A program made the position numbers and the translations under genes. From Leptolyngbyaceae cyanobacterium HOT.MB2.61 (GTDB lineage Bacteria; Cyanobacteriota; Cyanobacteriia; Leptolyngbyales; Leptolyngbyaceae), in contig JAIMBL010000015.1 in the NCBI GenBank assembly GCA_023511615.1, forward strand, positions 1-42,714: a DNA stretch of 42,714 nucleotides, in the 5' to 3' direction. The notes under the pieces are model-generated. The model had not been told where the DNA came from. It worked only from the letters and a program-made list of their open reading frames with translations, and ran no database searches. How positions within the stretch are numbered: the stretch's first letter is position 1; each line of letters starts with the position of its first letter. Positions 5,623-41,039 of the stretch are shown in pieces.

Positions 5623-5886
5623 ATGACACGTAGTAGACAATCTGATTCGCCTGACAGGATAGATATTCTGATTGATCAGGTCGGTTATTTAACTGAGGTC
5701 ATCACTGTCGGATTTCAGGATTTTCGAGCGGAGTTAGCTGAGTTAAAGGAAATCACCAGACAGCAGGCTGAGACTGCCAGACAGCAGGCTGAAACTGCCA
5801 AACAACAAGCCGAATCTGTTGCTAGATTGATCGGGATTATGGAAACTCTGCTTCAAAATAACAGAGGAACTTTCCCCTCAGGTTAA
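5623..5886 (+). CDS. Small coiled-coil protein with 7-residue repeats
   Basis: 87 residues from ATG 5623; an upstream in-frame TTG at 5602 would give 94. The C-terminal half contains near-identical 7-residue units (RQQAETA, RQQAETA, KQQAESV) encoded by 21-nt tandem DNA repeats, flanked by hydrophobic heptads. It should form a parallel coiled coil. There is no transmembrane segment and no known domain. Small proteins of this kind are common in cyanobacteria and are of unknown function. It is divergent from the permease gene, and a hairpin follows the stop. Confidence 0.6.
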   Translation: MTRSRQSDSPDRIDILIDQVGYLTEVITVGFQDFRAELAELKEITRQQAETARQQAETAKQQAESVARLIGIMETLLQNNRGTFPSG

Positions 5887-5904
5887 ATTTTAGGGCAAAA
5901 AACT

Positions 5905-5934
5905 AGAAGCCAGAAACCTTATCTTCTGGCTTCT
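5905..5934 (+). terminator. Hairpin after the coiled-coil gene
   Basis: AGAAGCCAGAA (5905-5915) pairs perfectly with 5924-5934 around an 8-nt loop, 18 bp after the stop at 5886. The bases that follow are pyrimidine-rich but not a clean T-run. The right arm is made of heptamer repeat DNA (CTTCTGG units), so it may be a repeat by-product acting as a terminator. Confidence 0.45.
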
Positions 5935-6003
5935 GGCTCCTATCTTTATTCCGATCTTCAATTGAGAAAGATGCCCCTGGGTAGACGCACTAAACTTGAC
6001 GCA

Positions 6004-9841: not shown

Positions 9842-9876
9842 AGTTGTTAGTTGTTAGTTGTTGATTGTTAGTTGTT
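9842..9876 (+). repeat. Heptanucleotide tandem repeat (STRR type)
   Basis: Five units of AGTTGTT, one of them a variant (GATTGTT), directly after the CHASE2-GGDEF-EAL stop. The 7-nt phase continues, with changing vocabulary, to about 9915. Short tandemly repeated heptamers are known from filamentous cyanobacteria. Confidence 0.85.
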
Positions 9877-9917
9877 AGTCAGAGGTGAGGCGGCAGGTGA
9901 CAGGCAACAGGCAGAGC

Positions 9918-10032: not shown

Positions 10033-10169
10033 ACTCAAAACTCATCTACAGCGAGTTTCAAATGCATAAACCACACTTCAGCCCCTAGCCCCCAGCCCCC
10101 TAAAGCCAGCTTCTAGCCCTTCAAAGTGGGCTAACTCAACTGAAACCCCCTGTAAGTAAGGAGAGAGTT

Positions 10170-10211
10170 GTGAGGTGTGAGGTGAAAACTCAGAACTCAA
10201 AACTCAAAACT
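10170..10211 (+). repeat. Heptanucleotide tandem repeat (STRR type)
   Basis: Six consecutive 7-nt units: two GTGAGGT, then GAAAACT, CAGAACT and two CAAAACT. The phase continues into pyrimidine-rich units up to the narM stop. The CAAAACT vocabulary is the reverse complement of the AGTTTTG units found inside the hybrid kinase genes. Confidence 0.85.
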
Positions 10212-10251
10212 CCCCACCCCATCACCCCATCACTCTCCCACTCCTTCCCAA

Positions 10252-24107: not shown

Positions 24108-26978
24108 CTATGCCGAACCTTGCTGGCTTTTTGTGGAAAGCTTGCCATCAACACAGGTCGAGATCAAATTTTTTACTTCGGTAAGTAGTTCTTCGTGGCT
24201 AAACGCCCCTTTCTGGAAAATCTGCTCAACCGCACCCCGCAACCTCATCCGATCTTCCAGAGTGATGTCCTTTGCCGTGATCACCACCACTGGAATCGAA
24301 CGCCACTCTGGACGTTTCTTGAGCTCCGCAACGACTCCAAATCCATCCATCTCTGGCATCATCAGGTCCAACAGAATCAGGTCTGGAATTTCTTTATCTA
24401 GAATATTTAATGCCACTCGTCCATTCGGTGCTTCAATTACAGTCCAACCCTCTTTCTCCAACATCTGTCGTAGCAGTTCCCGATTGGTAAGATCATCTTC
24501 TACCAGCAGAATGGAGCAGGGTGGCTCCTTGCAGCGATACTTTCTTAAAACGGACGACAGGCGGTCGCGATCTATGGGCTTAGTCAGGTAGTCTGATGCG
24601 CCAAGCGCGTAACCAACATTCTTATCATCCACCATAGTCAGCATAATGACTGGAATGTTAGCAAGTTCTAAATCGGCTTTCAGCATGGAAAGCACTGTCC
24701 AACCGTCCATACTGGGCATCATCACATCCAGGATAATGGCATCGGGATGACTCTCTCTGGCTTTTTGGATTCCTTCGATTCCAGAGCTGGCTACTTCGAC
24801 CCGAAACCCCTCCTTGCTGAGAAAACGCAGCATTAAGTCATGCACAGTAGGGTCATCGTCAATCACCAAAACCATGCTGGCTTTAATGGGGTTAAGCTGA
24901 GCATCCATTTTGGTTGAGGTCGGTGGAGCAGATTGGACCTTGGGGTCAATTACGTGGGCAGGCAACACCATAGTGAAGGTGGAACCCTTTCCAGGCTCGC
25001 TTTCAGCGGTGATGTCACCTCCCATCATCTGACAGAAACGCTTGGTAATTGCGAGCCCTAACCCAGTTCCCCCATACTTGCGAGTGGTAGATGCATCCGC
25101 CTGAGTAAAGGCCTGGAATAGCCTGTTCATCTGGTCTTCACTCATACCGATGCCGGTGTCGGAGACGGTGAAGGTGATGAAGTCGTTAGTGGTTGGTGGT
25201 TGGTGGTTAGTAGATGAGGAGGTGGAGAGTCTTGAGTTTTGAGTTTGAAGTTTCGAGTTTTGAGGCATTGAAATTCTTGCATCCTTGGCCCCTGACCCCC
25301 AGTCCCCAGTCCCTACGTCCTGACTCCCAACTCCTGACTCCTGATTCCTGGCTTCTGATTTTTCCCTTTTGCCTTCCAATTCCTGTCCCCTGTCCCCCAG
25401 CCCCCAGTTCCCTGTCTTCTGGCCCCTCTCTACCGTCAGCGTAATCGTCCCATTCTCGGTAAATTTGCTCGCGTTGCTCAGTAGATTGAACAGGTTCTGG
25501 CGGATTTTGGTCAGGTCGGCATACATCATGCCAATATCATTGGGGCATTGAACGATGAGGGTATTGTTGTTCTTCTGGATCAGGGGTTGGATGGTGTGGA
25601 GGATTTCAGCGATCGCCGTTGCAATATCAAACGTCTCCAGGTAAAGATCCATCCTGCCCGCCTCAATCTTGGAGAGGTCAAGGATATCGTTGATTAATCC
25701 CAGGAGATGCTTGCCCGCGCCATTAATCTTTTCCAGGTCAGGGATGAGGCCATCATGCCCCAAGTCTTCTGCATCTTCCCGAAGCATTTCGCTGTAGCCA
25801 ATGATGGCATTGAGGGGAGTCCGCAGTTCATGGCTCATGTTGGCAAGAAACTGACTTTTTGCATTGTTTGCCTGTTCCGCAGACTCCTTGGCTTTTTGAA
25901 GTTCGATCGCAGCTTGTTGCCGCTCTTTCTGTGACTTTTCCAGCGCATTTAGCATGGTGTTGATATTGCTACCCAACCTGGAAAGTTCATCCTGCCCCGT
26001 GGCTGAAACACGGCCTGATAAATCCCCATCAACGCCAATTCTGCTGACCTCACTGCTGAGTTTGCTTAAGCGAGATAAAACCAGCTTTTCCAGCAATAGC
26101 AGAGTTACTCCGCCAAATACCAATCCTGCAATCCAGATGGCCCAGGTAAGAAAGCGGACGGTTGCCTGCCCCTGCTGATAAATGGTGCGGGATGTTTCTG
26201 CTCGAATCAGCAGGGCAGGGTGGCCATAAATATCATTCAGCAAGGCATAGCCAGCGATGGTTTTGTCGTTTAATGTCTGCACCAATATGGGTGGATCGGG
26301 CTGTAAAGCAGACTGAGCCGCCTTTAAGCCGAAAGGAATCAGAGTTTGGTTGGTGCCCTGTAAGAAAACCGGATAGCGGGTCAAGCGGGCAAACCGACGG
26401 GCTTCGGCTTTATCCAGGTAGCGCCCAACAATCAGGGTCCCTTTGATTGGACCTTTGCCAGAACTGTTTAAGATTGGGCGAGAAACAATCAGCATGGGAC
26501 CTTCGGGCAAAAGCACAATTCCACTCAGGTTACTGGTAGGGTAGGAGTGCTGGAGTAAAAGATCACTCCGCACCAACCGAGATTTTAGGACAGCCGGGAT
26601 AGGGGTCGCTTTGCCACTTTTAAGGTCAAATCCGGTACCAAATACTACCTTCCCTGAAAGGTTAATGAATATCATCAGGTTGACTCGCAGGTAAGCCAGT
26701 TGGGGCTCAATCAGGTTGGATTGGATAAATTCCTGGTTGCCATCCTGCACAAACTGGTAGGCATCATCCCAGCTGGCCCAGTCATTGAAACTTTCATTGA
26801 ATTGTTCCAGATTCTGGGCAAAGACGCTTAAAACTCCCCTCATTACCTGACGGGTATCTTGTTCTTCGGCCCGTTTCCAACTACCCAGTAAAAGGGTTGA
26901 GGAAATGCTGTAAAGAACGGCATTAAGACCAATCAGTGTTGCACCGATGATGAGTAGTGTTCGTATACGCAAAGTCAT
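24108..26978 (-). CDS. CHASE4 hybrid histidine kinase with two receivers
   Basis: 956 residues from ATG 26976-26978 (CAGGAG 10 nt upstream); the frame is open 44 codons further but overlaps the previous gene. Order: membrane segment ([20 protein letters not shown]), CHASE4 extracytoplasmic sensor with [14 protein letters not shown], second membrane segment, HAMP, HisKA with [18 protein letters not shown], ATPase with N box [12 protein letters not shown]1 SDTGIGM and G2 GTGLGLAI, then two receivers ([11 protein letters not shown] and [11 protein letters not shown], both with their lysine). An 82-residue low-complexity insert (DNA 25183-25430) made of heptamer repeats lies between the N-box strand and G1. 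It is last in the operon, 31 bp after the soluble kinase gene. Confidence 0.92.
25183..25430 (-). repeat. Heptamer repeat insert in the CHASE4 kinase ATPase domain
   Basis: About 248 bp in continuous 7-nt phase, with units such as TGAGTTT, CAGTCCC, TGACTCC and TGTCCCC on the plus strand. It is translated in frame; the peptide shows 7-residue units QNSKLQT and QNSRLST. The part 25191-25264 is identical to 30591-30664. Confidence 0.88.
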
Positions 26979-27009
26979 GGGATGGTAACTCCTGACAGGT
27001 AGGTTCTGG

Positions 27010-29115
27010 TTAGACGCAGACCCTTGACCGGGCGCAGGTAGCAACCAACTTGCGCACTTCGACCAATGATTTTTCCCGGCTATAACCTCCGTGCTGGAAC
27101 AGGGTTTCAATGTAGCCGTTCAGCCAGAGACGCTCATCTCTAGAAATGTCCTGGGCGGTGATAACAACTACAGGAAGGTCATGTATCTGCTCGTGTTGAC
27201 GCAGATTTGCAATAAATTCTAAACCTTTCAGGTTGGGAGGCATCAAATCCAGTAGCACGAGATTAGGGGGATCTTGATTGAGCACTTCCAAAGCGGGGTA
27301 AGAGTTCTCGGCGATTTCGACCGTCCACCCTTCTTTTTCCAGCAGGCGCTGGACAATTTGACGGGTAGTAGCATCTTCCTGAACCAGCAGAATCTTTCCA
27401 CCGGATTCCCCAGGGTGGTAGGAACGGAGCAGTAGGGTCAGTCGCTTGAAGTCAGCGGGCCGGGTCAAATAATCAGAGAAACCAAGGGTAAATCCTATAC
27501 TCTGGTCATTGGCGATCGCCAGCATAACTACCGGAATTTCGGCCAGAGCCGGGTCGGACTTAAAGGCCGATAGAACTGCCCAGCTATCGACCTCTGGCAT
27601 CATCAGGTCCAGCAGAACCAGGCAGGGGCGCAGTTCCCGCGCCAGGCGTCGGCCTTCTTCGCCACACCAGGTCGTCACAACACGAAAGCCTTCCTGATTG
27701 AGGGTTTTCACCATCAAGTCACGCACGGTGCGATCGTCATCAATCACTAGAATTAACCCACCATCGTCTGGCAGATTAACAGACTCGATTGGGGACGAAT
27801 AATCTAATGGTTCGGATACGAGCACCGTCGTGACCTGGTGCTCCACTATATCCACTGGTAGAGAAACTGTAAAAGTCGAACCGCGGCCCGGCGTACTTTC
27901 CACCGAGATCGTTCCCCCTAACATCTGGCAGAACCGCTGACTAAGCGCCAATCCCAGGCCCGTTCCACTATATTTGCGGGTGGAAGAGTTATCCCCCTGA
28001 TTGAATGCTTCGAAGATGGTTTCTTGTTGGTCAGGGGAAATTCCAATCCCGGTGTCAGAGATGGTGAAAGTAATATAGGGAGTGGGGGAGTTTTGAGTTT
28101 GGAGTTCTGAGTTTTGAATTGCCTTTGACCCATCCATCCTATCTCCTAGCCCCCAGTCTTTAGCCCCTAGTCCCCCGTCCCTAACCTCTAGTTCCTCTGA
28201 CTCCTGGCTTCTGGCTCCTGCCTCCTGCCTTCTTTCCACTGCCAGCCTCACCGTTCCTTTCTCCGTAAACTTCGCCGCGTTGCTTAGCAGATTAAGCAGA
28301 ATTTGCCGGACTTTGCTCAGGTCGGTATGCATGGTACCCAGGTCTTTGGGGCAGTGAATGCTAAAGCTGGAACCGTTTTTCTCGACCCAGGGCTGGGCTG
28401 TTTGAGCAACCTCCTGAATCAGGAATGCAATATCGAAGTGCTCCAGGTAGAGATCCATCTTGCCTGCTTCGATTTTGGAAATATCCAGAATGTTGTTGAT
28501 CAACCCCAATAGATGTTTGCCAGAGGAATGAATTTTGTCGAGGTCAGGCACAAGGCTGGCATCAATTTCTTGTAGATCTTCTCTCAGGATTTCGCTGTAG
28601 CCAATAATGGCATTAAGCGGGGTGCGTAGTTCATGGCTCATGTTTGCCAGGAATACACTTTTTGCCCGATTGGCACTTTCGGCGGCGGCTTTTTCTGCCT
28701 TGAGCTGTTCCAGGTAAGACTTTTCCTGGTCGCGCAGCCATTTACGCTCCAGGCAGGCGTTGATGCGAGCTTTCAGTAATACCGGATTGAGAGGCTTAAA
28801 CAGGTAATCTTCGGCACCCATTTCAATGCAGTGGACGAGGCTATCCAGGTCATCCAGTCCAGACACCATGATCACCGGAATATGCTTGAAGTCAGGATCG
28901 GTTTTAATTATTTCCAGCGTCTGGAAACCGTTAAGCTCTGGCATTAGAATGTCCAGCAAAATCAGGTCGAAGGGCTGCTTTTTTAGCCAACGGATTACCT
29001 GACTGCCATTCTCAACGGCAGTCACGTTCAGGTTGTATTGGCGCAACTGGCGAGAAAAGTAAATGCGGCTGGGCTCGTCATCATCGGCAACCAGTACATG
29101 AGGAATCGGGTTCAT
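27010..29115 (-). CDS. Soluble hybrid histidine kinase (REC-HisKA-ATPase-REC-REC)
   Basis: 701 residues with no membrane segment. The N-terminal receiver has D55 ([11 protein letters not shown]) and FKP. HisKA has [18 protein letters not shown] near 159-176. The ATPase has N box [12 protein letters not shown]1 SDTGIGI and G2 GTGLGLAL, with a 53-residue heptamer-repeat insert. Two C-terminal receivers keep an aspartate ([21 protein letters not shown]), but the conserved lysine is replaced: TRP instead of TKP in the second receiver, and FQHGG where the sister kinases have a lysine in the third. These receivers may signal abnormally. AAGGAG is 7 nt before the start and overlaps the stop of the preceding receiver gene, so translation is coupled. 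Confidence 0.92.
28075..28237 (-). repeat. Heptamer repeat insert in the soluble kinase ATPase domain
   Basis: About 160 bp in 7-nt phase, with plus-strand units TGAGTTT, GGAGTTC, TCTTTAG, CCCCTAG and GGCTTCT. It is in frame and lies at the same structural position as in the two neighbouring kinases, but its sequence is not identical to theirs. Confidence 0.85.
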
Positions 29116-29119
29116 GGGG

Positions 29120-29488
29120 TTACTCCTTGCCCAGGAATGCCTGAATTTTGCCCATCAGCCGGAGAAATTCAACTGGTTTGGTGTCATAGTCGTCGCAGCC
29201 TGCTTCCATACACTTTTCGCGATCGCCCGCCATGGCATGAGCTGTCAGCGCAATGATAGGAATGGATTGGGTTTCGGGTATGGCTTTCAGTTTGCGGGTG
29301 GCTTCCCAACCATCGAGTACGGGCAGACTCATGTCCATCAGGATTAAATCGGGAGCCTCTAAACACGCCAGGTTAACGCCCTGCTCGCCATCGATCGCAA
29401 TCAAAATTTGATGCCCTTTGCGCTCCAGGCGGCGGGAAAGCATGTCCCGGTTCATTTCGTTATCTTCAACCAGCAAAATTTTAGCCAT
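29120..29488 (-). CDS. Single-domain response regulator
   Basis: 122 residues from ATG 29486-29488, with GGAGGAGG just upstream; the longer open frame lies within the preceding kinase gene. It is a CheY-like receiver alone: acidic residues E8 and D9, phospho-acceptor D52 in [15 protein letters not shown] and DTKP lysine. The first 8 bases overlap the end of the GAF/PAS kinase gene and the stop is 4 bp before the soluble kinase gene, so it is tightly coupled to both. It probably shuttles phosphate between the kinases (inference). Confidence 0.92.
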
Positions 29489-32400
29489 GAGCCTCCTCCA
29501 CGGTACGGGAGTTTTGACGGATGCAAGAGAATACCAGATCACGCACCTCTCCCAGCAATTCTTCCCGGCTATACGCTCCCTTTTCCAGGATTTGCTCGAC
29601 GTAGCCATTCAATTGAAGGCGATCAGCAGAGGTGAGATCCATAGCAGTTACAACAACAACGGGAATTTGGCGCCACTCAGACTGACTGCGCAATTCTTGA
29701 ATAAATTGAAAGCCATCCATTTCGGGCATCATCAGGTCTAGCAGAATCAGGTCTGGCCTGGCTTCGGCAAGGCGTTCCAGAGCAACCCGACCATTTTCGG
29801 CTTCTGCGATCGCCCAGCCTTCCTTCGCCAGAATGCGACGAAACATCTCGCGAGTAGTCGGGTCATCTTCAATAATCAATACCTGTCCAATCGAAGTCGG
29901 TGGATCGACTGTCAGTCTAGGTTGGTATTTTTCCAAAACCGAAGCCAGACGTTTGTAGTCAACTGGTTTGGTCAGATAGTCGGATGCACCCAGGGCAAAG
30001 CCCAGATTTTGGTTATCCACAATAGTCAGGACTACAACTGGAATGTCCGCCAGTTCTGGATCTGCCTTCAAACTTGAAAGAACTGACCAGCCATCCATTA
30101 CCGGCATCATCACATCTAGGGTAATAGCATCGGGGCGCAGTTTTTTGGCCAGGTGAAGCCCTTCTTGCCCATTGGGGGCCGTTTCCACCTGAAAACCCTC
30201 TTGAATCAAGTAGCGGGACAGCAGATCTCGCACTGTGGGCTCATCATCGATGACTAAAACAGTCAAATTTTTAGAAGGAGCAACCGCCGCTGGTTTGGTT
30301 GAAACGAGGGTTGGAGTTGAAGCTGGCGTGGGTTCAGGTTTGCGCTCATTTACCTGCATAGGCAACTGCACTATAAAGGTAGACCCCTTACCCGGTTCAC
30401 TTTCTACACTGACATCGCCTCCCATCATCTGGCAAAATCGGCGGCTGATGGCAAGCCCCAGCCCGGTTCCCCCATACTTGCGGGTGGTGGATGCATCCGC
30501 CTGGGTAAATGGCTGAAACAATCGGCTTAGCTGATCTTCGGTCATGCCAATGCCGGTGTCCGAGACGGTGAAGGTGATGAAGTGGTTAGGGGTTGGTGGT
30601 TGGTGGTTAGTAGATGAGGAGGTGGAGAGTCTTGAGTTTTGAGTTTGAAGTTTCGAGTTTTGAGTCATTGGAACTCTTTCATCCCTGGCCCCTGCCCCCC
30701 AGTCCCTGCCCTCTGCGTCCTGCGTCTTGGCTCCTGCCTCCTGCTCTATCTTTACGGTCAACGTAATAGTACCCTTTTCGGTAAATTTGCTCGCATTACT
30801 CAGCAGGTTCAGTAGGATTTGGCGGACTTTGGTCAGGTCAGCGTACATCGTTTCCTGCTCGATAAGGCTCTGGGTAACCAGGATGTTGCCGTTCTTTTCG
30901 ACCATTGGCTGGATGGTGGCTCTGACCTCATCAATCATGTCAATGATGCTGAATCTTTCCAGGTAGAGGTCCATTTTGCCGGCCTCAATTTTGGAAATAT
31001 CCAGAATGTCATTGATCAACCCCAGCAGATGTTTGCCTGCACCATGAATTTTTCCCAGGTCAGGAACGATGTCCTCGTAACCCATGTCGAGGCAGTCTTC
31101 CTGCAACATTTCGCTGTAGCCGATGATGGCGTTGAGTGGAGTGCGCAGTTCATGGCTCATGTTGGCGAGAAACTGGCTCTTGGCGCGGCTGGCTGTTTCG
31201 GCGGCTTCCTTGGCCTTCAAGAGTTCTTCGGCGGCTTGCTTGCGATCGCTGATGTCTTCAACAATCCCTTCGTAATGGAGGAAATTGCCGTCGTCGTACA
31301 CAGCACGGGCATTTTCTGAAATCCAGATTATGCTGCCATCACGGCGGTAAACCTGAGACTCAAAATTATTGACGACTCCATACTCGGCTATCAGGTGAAT
31401 AAACTCTGCCCGCCGTTCGGGATTTACATACAGTTGATTTTCGATATGGTTAGAGAGCGTAGCAATCAGTTCTTCAGGCGAATCGTAGCCGTAGATTCTT
31501 GCCAGGGCAGGGTTAGCACTGATATAGCGACCTTCGGCTGTGGTTTGAAAGATACCGTCAGCCGCATTTTCAAAAATGCTGCGATACTTTTCTTCTGCCT
31601 GTTGCAGGGCAAGTTCGGCGCGTTTGCGATCGCTTATATCCATCGTCACCCCACTCATGAGAAGAGGTTTACCGTTAGCATCACGCACCACATTGCCACG
31701 GCTATTTGCCCAGTGAACACTGCCATCATCCCAGATGACACGATACTCGACGTTGTACTCAGTCCCCTGCTCAAAGGTTTCAGCCTGAGCCTGCTCCAGC
31801 TTCTCCCGATCATCCGGGTGAACTCGCTTAATAAATTCCTGGTAGTTAGGCACAAAAGAGGCGGAATCCACACCAAAAACAGCCGCGACCTGCTCTGACC
31901 ATTTTTCTTCTCCTGTTACAATATTCCAGTCCCAGGCTCCCATTTTGGCAGCGTTGAGTGCGACTCGAAGTAATTCTTCCTGCTGGCGCAGGGTAACTTC
32001 TGCTTGCTTGCGTTTAATAAACTGCCCGATTTGATTGCCAACAGTCGTCATCATGTTAATCAGGTCAATATCCGGTTCTCGAATGCTGCGGTTAAAGAAG
32101 GATAGGACTCCTACCACCTGATTGCCTGCCCGGATGGGAAACCCAAAAGCGGAATGAAGCCCTGCACGGGCTGCCATTTCTCCTCGGAGAAAGCGGCTAT
32201 CTTTCCTCACATCAGCAATCCAGATTGGTTCACCCGTACTCCAGACCAGCCCATTCATCCCCTCACCAGGAGCAAAGGTAAGGGTATGGCTATCCGCATC
32301 GAATTCAGATTGCTTGGCCGGAGTCGTGCCCCAACTCTGAACAAACTCCAAGCGATTCGCCTGAGGATTGACCAGCCAGAGATCTCCCAAATCCCATTTC

Positions 32401-33533
32401 AGGCTTTCACAAATGCCCTGGAGAATGAGTGGGGCGGCTTCTTCTAAATCTTTCGATTCTGCCAAGGCAAAAGTGGTTATATATTGTACTTTAAGCCGCT
32501 GTTCGGCGCGAATTCGCTGGGTGAGACTGCGAGCAAAGGCCGCGAAGACCCCGATGACCGACAGCAAGACGAATAAGCCGAAGATTCGCACCTGTCTCCT
32601 CTTTTGAGTAAATTTGTTAATTCGAACTTGAAGCAATCGATCGAGTGCTGGAGATGCCGCATCATAAAGTTGAAACTGCCCGGCGATCGCGCGATCAGCC
32701 AACGAAGCTACTTCACTTGACTTGACGAAACCACTTTGAGTCCCAATTTTACGAATAATTTGGTAATAATTCTTGCTACTATTCCTCATTTGCTGATAAG
32801 CCGACGCCAGTTCGGCTTCGAGCTGGGGGTTGAACTTAAAAGCTACATCTCGTCCCCGTGCAAGCTTCTTTAGGGAAGACTCCAGTGCATTCGATAATCC
32901 AATGAGTTGAACCCGTTCCTCCAGTTGTGGTGTACCCTGTTGAGCGATTTTTGTAGTCAATTCCCTGGCCTGGGCAGAACTCTCGATCACCGCTGGCAAT
33001 CGATTCACCGTAGCGTCCATGAGGTAGTAGGTATCCAGGTCAGGGTCAAGGATCAGGTTGGAGGTATCTCCCACGTGGGCAATCAACTCCAGCAGGTTGT
33101 TAACCAGGATGAAATGAAGTCGCAGGACTATGATCCTGGAAAAGGCAGGCAGTCCTTCCTTTAACTGCCTCCAATCACTAACCAGGTCGCTCCAGGAATG
33201 GTGGGTTTGCAACGGGGTTCCCAGTTCTTTCTCCAGGGAGTCTATCTGGGCGATCACGGCATCAATTTCAACCTGTTTGCTGAATAGTTGCGGCTTCGAG
33301 TTGGCATGGGTTTGAACTGCCAGAGCAAGCTGCTGATGCTGAATGATATCTTCTAACAAATGGCGCAAAGAACGGTTGAAGCGTACTCCCATTCGTTCTT
33401 TTTCAGCAAAATCAATACTGACATTGATTTCCGCAACCAGACGATTGACAACTACCACAAAAGGCACTGTAAAAACGAGAAACAAACCCACCAGGATTCC
33501 TCGACCCGTAAATCGTCTCAGTGCGTTTTTCAT
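29481..33533 (-). CDS. Membrane GAF/PAS hybrid histidine kinase with two receivers
   Basis: 1350 residues. Two membrane segments (about 14-33 and 318-336) enclose a helical extracytoplasmic sensor. Then come a GAF domain (about 350-510, [20 protein letters not shown]), a PAS_3 domain ([13 protein letters not shown] to [12 protein letters not shown]), a second PAS ([15 protein letters not shown] to [12 protein letters not shown]), HisKA with [18 protein letters not shown], and the ATPase with N box [12 protein letters not shown]1 SDTGIGM and G2 GTGLGLAI. Two receivers follow ([21 protein letters not shown], lysines present). A 57-residue heptamer insert interrupts the ATPase (DNA 30583-30750). 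It is the first gene of the minus-strand signalling operon; the start follows an AT-rich region without a strong Shine-Dalgarno. Confidence 0.93.
30583..30750 (-). repeat. Heptamer repeat insert in the GAF/PAS kinase ATPase domain
   Basis: About 168 bp in 7-nt phase, translated in frame; peptide units QNSKLQT and QNSRLST are the same as in the CHASE4 kinase. 30591-30664 is identical to 25191-25264; beyond it the two inserts diverge in length and sequence. Confidence 0.88.
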
Positions 33534-36464: not shown

Positions 36465-36582
36465 TGGGTAAGGATGAGGGGGTAGAGGTGATAGGGTGAT
36501 AGGGTGGGGCATCCCTCCTTCCGCTCCATCTAACCGACTCACTCCTCTACTCATCCACCCATCTGGCCCTACTCCCTCGAAC
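36465..36582 (+). repeat. Low-complexity tract before the SUI1 gene
   Basis: G-rich units (GATAGGGT twice) followed by pyrimidine-rich units with partial 7-nt phase (CCTCTAC, TCATCCA, CCCATCT) run up to the start codon of the SUI1-family gene, so its leader consists largely of simple repeat DNA. Confidence 0.5.
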
Positions 36583-40524: not shown

Positions 40525-41039
40525 ACACCTCCTTGAATCCTATGCCCAGCCTGTTTGGGTAGTTCTGCTCTACAATCTTTACGAGGATTTTCCCTCTAAA
40601 AGGTTCTTTATCGGTTCTGTAGAGTTGATTTCCAGGCAGGCTTTCTACATTTCCATCGAAATAGGGTTGCTATCTAACCTTTCATTGGGTTTAATAAGCT
40701 AGCGGTTTAATAAGCTAGCAGTAGTGAACTTAAACCTGACATCCATGAAAGTTAGCAAAGGAAGTTAGTGAGTCAAGAGCAGAAGCCAGGAGTTAGAAGA
40801 GGAAAGGCTTCTAAAATCTATCTATTGACTTCTGTTTTCAAGTTAATCTCTCATGAACTGCCCTTAATTCCAGGCTTGAGGTTTTTCATCATTCTCAACT
40901 TCCGATTCCCTAATGAGACTTTAAAAGGATATTATTTTTATTTAGAGATTATAATCCTAAATATTCAAGCTGTGAATCTATCGAATTTTGAATCGAAGGC
41001 TCCCTTGATACATTAGCTTCCGCCAGAGTAGAAATTTTT
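40525..41039. other. 515-bp gap after psaM
   Basis: This contains a 16-bp exact tandem duplication (40688-40719), an inverted pair CTCTACA / TGTAGAG around 40570-40625, and a heptamer-phased stretch near 40768-40810. An 82-codon GTG-initiated frame at 40768-41016 runs from that repeat DNA and has no motif; I do not call it. Confidence 0.45.
40688..40719 (+). repeat. 16-bp exact tandem duplication
   Basis: GGTTTAATAAGCTAGC occurs twice in a row. It is a recent slippage duplication by its identity and has no evident role. Confidence 0.9.

Follow-up and report, generated by a model that had tools for sequence, protein, structure and literature searches.

The stretch of DNA analyzed here (the window) is 42,714 nucleotides (nt) from the Leptolyngbyaceae cyanobacterium HOT.MB2.61 (assembly GCA_023511615.1; contig JAIMBL010000015.1, positions 1 to 42,714), the genome of which is a draft in 383 contigs. 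The minus strand of the window encodes three hybrid histidine kinases, each with a block of tandem 7-nt repeats read in frame within its ATPase domain. K1 (24108 to 27110) has the domain order CHASE4-HAMP-HisKA-HATPase-REC-REC, K2 (27010 to 29115) is REC-HisKA-HATPase-REC-REC, and K3 (29481 to 33533) is GAF-PAS-PAS-HisKA-HATPase-REC-REC, with a single-domain response regulator (29120 to 29608) encoded between K3 and K2. The open reading frame (ORF) of K1 begins at a TTG and in this form overlaps K2 at positions 27010 to 27110; its true start probably lies further in, near MTLRIRTLL. Operons of this type, holding as many as four of the kinases (window 24108 to 33533; L031 to L050), recur across genera of the family and class (here and below, G and L numbers are labels of compared genomes and loci). 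The heptameric inserts, also on the minus strand, encode 83 amino acids (aa) in K1 (25182 to 25430; tandem-repeat finder rows 25185 to 25427), 53 aa in K2 (28078 to 28236), and 57 aa in K3 (30582 to 30752). Each insert comes after the beta strand that follows the N box and before the strand that has the G1 Asp at its end. The original prediction for this DNA had put low-complexity inserts at one shared site of the three ATPase domains, and this is borne out, with 83 aa rather than about 82 aa for K1. No intein domain is present among the Pfam matches of the kinases and of the scanned tract-bearing ORFs described below; the inserts are low-complexity repeats.

The 7-nt periodicity of the inserts is a property of the DNA. 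Lag-7 identity of the insert DNA is 0.591, 0.579, and 0.579 in K1, K2, and K3, respectively, compared with means of 0.272, 0.278, and 0.275 (maxima, 0.355, 0.408, and 0.427) for 2000 codon shuffles of each insert. Synonymous recodings of the same peptides have mean lag-7 identities of 0.399, 0.347, and 0.400 and maxima of 0.512, 0.447, and 0.506. Since the insert DNA exceeds the synonymous recodings of its own peptide, the periodicity does not merely follow from a repetitive peptide. The original prediction would have fallen had no periodicity exceeded a codon-shuffled control, and it survives this comparison. In all three inserts, lag 7 gives the highest identity among lags 1 to 24, followed by lags 14 and 21, and the encoded peptides repeat every 7 residues, as had been predicted. 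The predicted continuous 7-nt phase holds locally but not over a longer range: identity at multiples of 7 drops to background by about lag 42 to 56, and the units change in blocks.

In coding order, the K1 insert consists of G-rich purine blocks (GGACAGG/GGAGTCA/GGGGACT-like), the spacer ATGCAAGAATTTCAATG, a (CAAAACT)-like block, and a C-rich block. Exact CAAAACT units occur three times in K1, twice in K2, and three times in K3, and five times in an intergenic tract at positions 10185 to 10212, which supports the earlier claim that inserts and intergenic tracts have units in common. The claim holds less well for the second unit that it named, CTTCTGG, which is only sporadic (2, 1, and 0 copies in K1, K2, and K3; 3 copies at 5700 to 6003, with both strands counted). 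The full extent of the CAAAACT-type intergenic tract is 10165 to 10233 (plus strand), in which the AAAACTC unit is preceded by GAGGTGT and followed by CACCCCAT, an 8-mer. Two further intergenic tracts on the plus strand are (AGTTGTT)n at 9842 to 9879 and the short (CTTCTGG)2 at 5923 to 5938, which the original prediction had cited. We take the CAAAACT-type tracts to be what are called short tandemly repeated repetitive (STRR) sequences. They belong with cyanobacterial heptamer repeats in that they have tandem or near-tandem 7-nt units without another period and the same units dispersed in intergenic DNA. Exact (CAAAACT)3 is found in just 11 of 292 genomes, HOT.MB2.61 included, a patchy distribution that rules it out as a phylum-wide marker. 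The dominant unit (AAAACTC)n is mirror-symmetric, that is, identical when read backwards, up to rotation, and a reversed-pattern control for (CAAAACT)3, which matched about equally often, is uninformative for this reason.

Inserts of this type are not confined to the three kinases of the window, nor to kinases. K3 insert DNA has at least 47 matches at an E value of ≤1 in its own genome, itself included (40 of 207 candidates scored). The patterns for the kinase linker (the segment at the insert site) had no match in 24 of 42 sources from this genome and gave 21 readable linkers, including the 3 in the window. Among these 21, a further kinase (L091) has a 60-aa insert of this type at the same loop (lag-7 z score, 7.3), and there are two weaker inserts (28 aa in L091, z = 4.0; 29 aa in L092, z = 3.0). 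The "three" kinases of the original prediction are therefore an undercount. To count tracts more widely, we drew a genome sample of 579,420 bases (11% of the total) from 40 contig stretches. Half of these (20 stretches; 223,737 bases with 22 tracts, 5 of them in ORFs) were chosen by contig number. The other 20 are less random: most come from contigs on which kinases or tracts were known beforehand, although mostly from other parts of these contigs, and at least 2 of them include a place matching K3 insert DNA; tract density is alike in both halves. The sample contains 54 lag-7 tracts, versus 3, 2, 16, 5, 4, and 2 tracts for lags 5, 6, 8, 9, 10, and 11. Among the six control lags, lag 8 yields the most tracts (L071 to L090 and L131 to L150), and 8-mers are present in the window at positions 10215 to 10233 and 36487 to 36506.

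Fifteen of the 54 heptamer tracts lie inside ORFs that stay open for 60 aa or more in each direction, versus 60% of random sites (n = 2979), where flanks and ORFs were read mechanically from stop to stop. Tract-bearing ORFs have Pfam domains, and the tracts lie within or between conserved domains. The genes with in-frame tracts, named from our reading of the Pfam matches and drawn from the genome sample and from loci chosen by K3 insert similarity or for kinases, encode MutS, MutS2, MutL, UvrA, PriA, a SNF2 helicase, PanC-Cmk, a LeuA-type synthase, PutA, a nickel-insertion (LarC-type) protein, Lnt, and an FGE-sulfatase-type protein. With so many unrelated conserved genes carrying such tracts, they are not a peculiarity of kinases. 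The repair proteins MutS (L141:12728-15598), MutS2 (L065:1805-4396), MutL (L062:241-2061), and UvrA (L132:16383-19448) all have in-frame tracts. Look-alike peptides appear in unrelated proteins, with SQE-type and DWG/GWG-type stretches in either order followed by a QNSKLKT-type stretch. In MutS2, the tract divides the ATPase domain directly ahead of the LVLLDEVGAGTDP motif, which we take to be Walker B; 41 residues occupy this site in HOT.MB2.61 and 2 in a solved MutS2.

The tracts are ordered and directional. The CAAAACT blocks at the loci of this genome number 81 (this count and the junction comparison pool the genome sample with loci picked for matching the K3 insert): 20 are sense in long ORFs, none is antisense, and 61 are outside long ORFs, so that the same units are dispersed outside genes. 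GGAGTCA-like and GGGGACT-like units are found upstream on the same strand in 50% and 35% of the ORF cases and in 23% and 13% of the others, and within 90 nt downstream of CAAAACT they are found at 0 of the 81 blocks. CAAAACT is stop-free only in the orientation seen within genes. In the C block alone, an average of 2.7 of 3 sense frames are open in the ORF cases and 2.5 of 3 in the others, compared with 0.3 and 0.7 antisense frames, which explains the fixed orientation in genes. When the final 32 nt before CAAAACT are compared, 57 of 3160 pairs have at least 20 of 32 identities, versus 0 in one letter shuffle per pair, a sharing that is partly due to common G-rich heptamers. One junction family that is not periodic (around ATGAAARARTTCCA) joins K1 and K3 with L051, L052, and L058; L051 is a tract outside long ORFs, and L052 is a sulfatase-type gene. 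Independent slippage does not predict junctions common to unrelated loci.

Within the window, K1 and K3 have been homogenized. The 3' parts of their inserts, encoding the last 29 aa in each case (25182 to 25268 in K1 and 30582 to 30668 in K3, both on the minus strand), are 97% identical over 87 aligned nt, and the next 120 nt are 83% identical, compared with 64 to 74% in the other measured segments, including the insert 5' part (69%). This pattern reflects local homogenization, for which gene conversion would be the simplest process. Three separate insertions into the kinases of the window are thereby rejected as far as K1 and K3 are concerned.

We next compared the same loops in relatives. 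A K3-like match at an E value of ≤1e-120 is present in 21 of 115 genomes, HOT.MB2.61 included. The corresponding regions of the 20 relatives contain 43 kinase linkers of 5 to 78 aa, of which 11 have a lag-7 z score of ≥3 and 7 are short (5 to 11 aa). In the same-genus genome G001, the linkers that correspond by gene order have 26, 9, and 33 aa, versus 57, 53, and 83 aa in HOT.MB2.61. MutS2 linkers, which could be read by patterns at 27 of 30 loci, are 7 to 122 aa long. They have z scores of 4.8 to 12.2 in HOT.MB2.61, G015, G014, G023, G018, G006, G004, and G020, and of 3.6, 2.9, and 2.2 in G001, G013, and G012. They are only 7 to 13 aa long in G047, G022, G048, G007, G008, and G016, 18 to 28 aa and nonperiodic in G021, G003, G019, G051, G005, and G049, and long but nonperiodic in G046, G053, G050, and G044. 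The PanC loop (13 of 30 loci read) is long and heptameric in HOT.MB2.61, G006, G020, and G004 and is 17 to 23 aa and nonperiodic in the other nine. For MutS and PriA, which were chosen from the genome sample, rows with gappy flanks were dropped, which left 30, 30, 28, and 29 genomes (HOT.MB2.61 included) for MutS sites A and B and PriA sites 1 and 2, respectively; z is ≥3 in 10, 12, 3, and 8 of these, and the segment has ≤25 residues in 21, 18, 8, and 16. On a MutS tree, the minimum numbers of state changes are 5 for MutS site A, 6 for MutS site B, 2 for MutS2, and 5 for PriA site 2 (the tree was built quickly and leaves 8 of its 27 inner branches open, and states were mapped for 23 of 30 genomes for MutS2 and 26 of 30 for PriA). 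It had been asked whether distant orthologues carry the same peptide encoded by nonrepetitive DNA; long nonperiodic inserts do exist, as in the four MutS2 genes above, but their peptides differ.

These comparisons also bear on whether misassembly or misread ORFs could make intergenic tracts appear to be coding. The assembly is fragmented, and some stop-to-stop ORFs run past real starts (e.g., L073). However, other assemblies, among them the single-contig genomes G015 and G023, have these loops filled as well, and in genes such as those for MutS2, MutS, PanC, and the kinases the reading frame runs on into conserved domains to either side of the insert. We regard an artifact as extremely improbable.

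The content of the inserts tracks the genome rather than the site. We compared the 9-mers of 39 inserts with z ≥ 3 (16 from kinases, 10 from MutS2, 9 from PriA site 2, and 4 from PanC) in 15 genomes; HOT.MB2.61 and G006 provide 14 of the 39, so pairs are not independent, and the set excludes PriA site 1 and MutS (the site A pattern found no inserts, and site B was left out). Within a single genome, inserts in different genes have 6.0% of their 9-mers in common (47 pairs), and those in paralogous kinases have 8.9% (14 pairs). Across genera, sharing is 1.5% for the same site (180 pairs) and 1.8% for other sites (459 pairs). Between species of the same genus it is 3.1% for the same site (13 pairs) and 2.6% for other sites (28 pairs). 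After codon shuffling, it is 0.2%. When genome labels were permuted within sites, the observed value was reached in 0 of 2000 permutations. Inheritance of the content along with the site is contradicted by these values, and the best inference from them is that the site persists while its sequence is drawn from the genome's own pool.

The lengths of the inserts are a further point of comparison. Based on loop lengths entered by hand from the comparisons above, with one genome per species, the differences between same-genus species are multiples of 3 nt without a preference for 21 nt (3 of 19 are multiples of 21 nt, versus 2.7 expected). The predicted change in steps of 21 nt is therefore not supported at this level. 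This result concerns the possibility that the inserts arose de novo, by local 7-nt slippage from short seeds under a genome-wide mutational preference, with similar units reflecting bias and not copying. A study of TAACTGA heptamers (PMC4679880) reports that, in most genomes, heptamers outnumber every other category of long simple repeat, and slippage related to polymerase contact is proposed. The predominance of lag 7 in our own genome sample agrees with this, as do the inserts of unrelated heptamer units in the same loop in Chloroflexota and other noncyanobacterial records (see below). Yet ordered one-strand blocks, a nonperiodic junction family, and within-genome sharing of 9-mers are all unexpected under slippage, and the length differences show no excess of multiples of 21 nt over chance. 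We therefore consider slippage an unlikely explanation, although one that retains some weight.

Structural prediction suggests how such inserts are accommodated. In an AlphaFold (AF2, 18 sequences) model of a 297-residue kinase fragment, with a mean predicted local distance difference test (pLDDT) score of 75.7, insert residues 157 to 202 have a pLDDT of <50 and lie between strands 145 to 154 and 207 to 215, the second of which ends at the invariant G1 Asp215. The two strands are confident, and the loop between them is predicted to be disordered. The insert is predicted to be the disordered tip of a hairpin, approximately nine residues up-strand from the nucleotide site, and its topology suggests that it points away from the ATP. 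The closest solved folds include the GacS, HK853, and RetS kinases. In PDB entry 7p8e, chain A, approximately 49 residues (208 to 256) are unaligned at the same hairpin, as seen in the HMMER alignment only; this chain thus has a long natural insert at the same histidine kinase loop, as K1 to K3 do, and the loop therefore tolerates insertions elsewhere too.

Kinases from outside the Cyanobacteria were compared in a scan of named genomes, which covered one strand. Of 55 noncyanobacterial loci identified by similarity to K3, the linker patterns missed 4, and the remaining 51 gave 66 linkers, 7 of which have z ≥ 3. These come from Anaerolineales, Oscillochloris, and a record titled Akkermansia (L227, L218, L219, L239, L246, and L282); the Akkermansia title (L227) may be a binning error. 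The seven inserts have unrelated units, with complementary heptamer arms by eye. Such arms suggest a palindromic element, similar to a miniature inverted-repeat transposable element or a Rickettsia palindromic element (RPE), that is mobilized by a transposase and inserts in frame, and this would fit dispersed, directional tracts of similar sequence within and between genes. The z scores for the minimum free energy of folding (zMFE) of the seven inserts are -13.2, -8.7, -6.5, -4.9, -2.6, -1.1, and -0.5, so that five of the seven fold strongly compared with shuffles (zMFE below -2). In contrast, zMFE is +1.4, +1.3, and +2.5 for K1, K2, and K3, which are not hairpins, and a palindromic or hairpin element is rejected for these three. 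Among the 33 strongly periodic inserts, only 7 have a zMFE below -2, five of them noncyanobacterial and two from G006, and reading of the sequences, without a dedicated search, recognized no terminal inverted repeats or target duplications. Overall, a palindromic element of this kind is very unlikely to be the general explanation.

Based on the periodicity, the recurrence in the same loops, the genome-specific content, the fixed orientation in genes, the junctions common to unrelated loci, and the homogenization of K1 with K3, we think it probable that the inserts are coding copies of dispersed, directional, species-specific heptamer tracts, the content of which is overwritten from the genome pool in loops that tolerate them. 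In coding orientation, a tract opens with purine- or G-rich heptamers of the GGAGTCA and GGGGACT types, the order of which varies, and continues through a short spacer and (CAAAACT)n into C/T-rich heptamers. The G-rich part encodes peptides such as GVRSQES and GTGDWGL, and (CAAAACT)n gives QNSKLKT. As 7 and 3 have no common factor, the unit is read in all three phases once a tandem heptamer reaches 21 nt, and a given strand therefore has stops in all of its frames or in none of them. A copy in the open orientation, with a net length that is a multiple of 3, would thus provide an open, flexible, disordered linker. Copies would persist at exposed loops and hairpin tips, which may include, besides the kinase hairpin between the N box and the G1 box, the MutS2 loop before Walker B and the loops of MutS, PriA, and PanC. 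There, loop content would be overwritten repeatedly from the genome's pool by recombination, gene conversion, or templated copying; overwriting from the genome's own pool would explain why the same site is occupied in different genera with units that are those of the respective genome. Such copying is our best inference from the sharing of content, the junctions, and the K1-K3 pair.

Several observations weigh against this reading. The absence of antisense blocks in genes is partly automatic, as antisense CAAAACT brings stops. At least 1 of the 15 "coding" tracts (L073) is probably upstream of the true start. Some long loops have no periodicity, so loop growth needs no heptamers. Heptamer-positive states are mainly in one 14-genome clade of the MutS tree (Shimodaira-Hasegawa-like approximate likelihood ratio test support, 82), plus G053 and G044, and a single early occupation followed by turnover may account for some of the recurrence at the same sites. 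In the named-genome scan, the 23 cyanobacterial loci have 38 kinase linkers, of which only 3 reach z ≥ 3. We identified neither ends of an element nor a target-site duplication nor an enzyme for copying (terminal inverted repeats and duplications were looked for by reading, without a dedicated search), and the case for mobility is therefore indirect. Finally, the frame-blindness of stop-free heptamers is arithmetic and holds for every unit length that is not a multiple of 3, such as 4, 5, or 8 nt, and we reject frame-blindness as the reason for a unit length of 7.

The original prediction held that an element class known from noncoding DNA has been domesticated or tolerated in a loop of a catalytic domain. 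The tracts are indeed read in frame there, but domestication is not needed, given the short loops in relatives and the swapping of content. Domestication would mean that the inserts are selected as linkers (for partner binding, tuning of catalysis, or condensation), with heptamer DNA as a cheap source. The occupation of the same loops in a number of genera would agree with this. So would the purine content: in all of the 33 strongly periodic inserts, the 5' half has more purines than the 3' half, and this gives, by eye, a peptide that is charged at first and then rich in P/S/T. However, this asymmetry is not a specific sign of selection on the protein, since the purine shift is also present in 28 of 32 nonperiodic linkers, and the shift from G-rich before CAAAACT to C-rich after it is also present outside long ORFs. 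Moreover, 7 of the 43 linkers in the kinase regions of relatives are loops of 5 to 11 aa, content follows the genome and not the protein site, and similar peptides are found in unrelated enzymes. We consider domestication quite unlikely. Tolerance is the likelier alternative, because some close relatives do without inserts, content is interchangeable, and coding tracts are underrepresented (15 of 54 versus 60%), and the loops would then be mainly tolerated rather than selected.

The tracts can be compared with repeats described previously, among which the intragenic GGGGA(C/T)T repeats of Anabaena and the in-frame RPEs come closest, the latter as the nearest analogue in function. The GGGGA(C/T)T repeats of Anabaena PCC 7120 are scattered over the chromosome, with 68% of 89 intergenic and a notable intragenic fraction (PMC4692102), and the inserts described here include the same unit class, GGGGACT. 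In contrast to the present analysis, the main text of that paper does not contain the terms "in-frame," "peptide," "protein sequence," or "amino acid," and we saw in the part of it available to us no placing in protein loops, block order, or same-site comparison across genera. The TAACTGA heptamers of Beggiatoaceae, Cyanobacteria, and Bacteroidetes are scattered 7-nt direct repeats (PMC4679880). In the genome on which that study was based, most of them lie a short distance ahead of start codons; a translational role is suggested, and translated forms of the repeats are considered as well. TAACTGA contains stop codons, unlike the in-gene units found here. RPEs (Ogata et al., 2000 and 2002, as described in PMC10969869 and PMC3733652) are dispersed palindromes of ~150 bp with ten identified families; a large share of the elements are in frame in unrelated genes, where the added peptide is apparently compatible with function. 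Like RPEs, the tracts of HOT.MB2.61 are dispersed and in frame in unrelated protein genes. Unlike RPEs, they are tandem heptamers of variable length and units, are genome specific, and do not form hairpins in the window kinases; kinase linkers range from 5 to 83 aa and MutS2 linkers from 7 to 122 aa, with units that differ between genomes. In the full-text literature, screened by titles and abstract openings and with subscription papers underrepresented, we recognized no account of heptamer tracts as in-frame loop inserts, which is weak evidence for the absence of one.

RPEs are the best-known case of repetitive DNA that is read in frame within bacterial genes. In the present case, tandem heptamers behave in this way in a free-living phylum, in core enzymes, and in the same loops in several genera, with content that tracks the host. 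This provides a testable origin for low-complexity loops of bacterial proteins, and a loop that exists in empty, own-unit, and other-unit states is a clean system in which to ask whether such inserts are neutral, costly, or useful. It also becomes a sharper question why, among long simple repeats, those of 7 nt predominate: frame-blindness would help a repeat to live inside genes, but as it is not particular to 7 nt, something else must favor this length. It is conceivable, although we advance this only tentatively and incline slightly against it, that heptamers are general, frame-blind, loop-invading DNA of bacteria. Private genome pools would colonize, overwrite, and lose exposed loops of conserved enzymes, including those of mismatch repair and replication restart. 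They would have independent origins in Cyanobacteria, Chloroflexota, and others, with unrelated units, and would serve as a nonadaptive source of disordered segments.

The window also contains two perfect two-copy tandem repeats, one of 25 nt at positions 1007 to 1056, which overlaps the start of the ORF at 122 to 1021, and one of 16 nt at positions 40688 to 40719.

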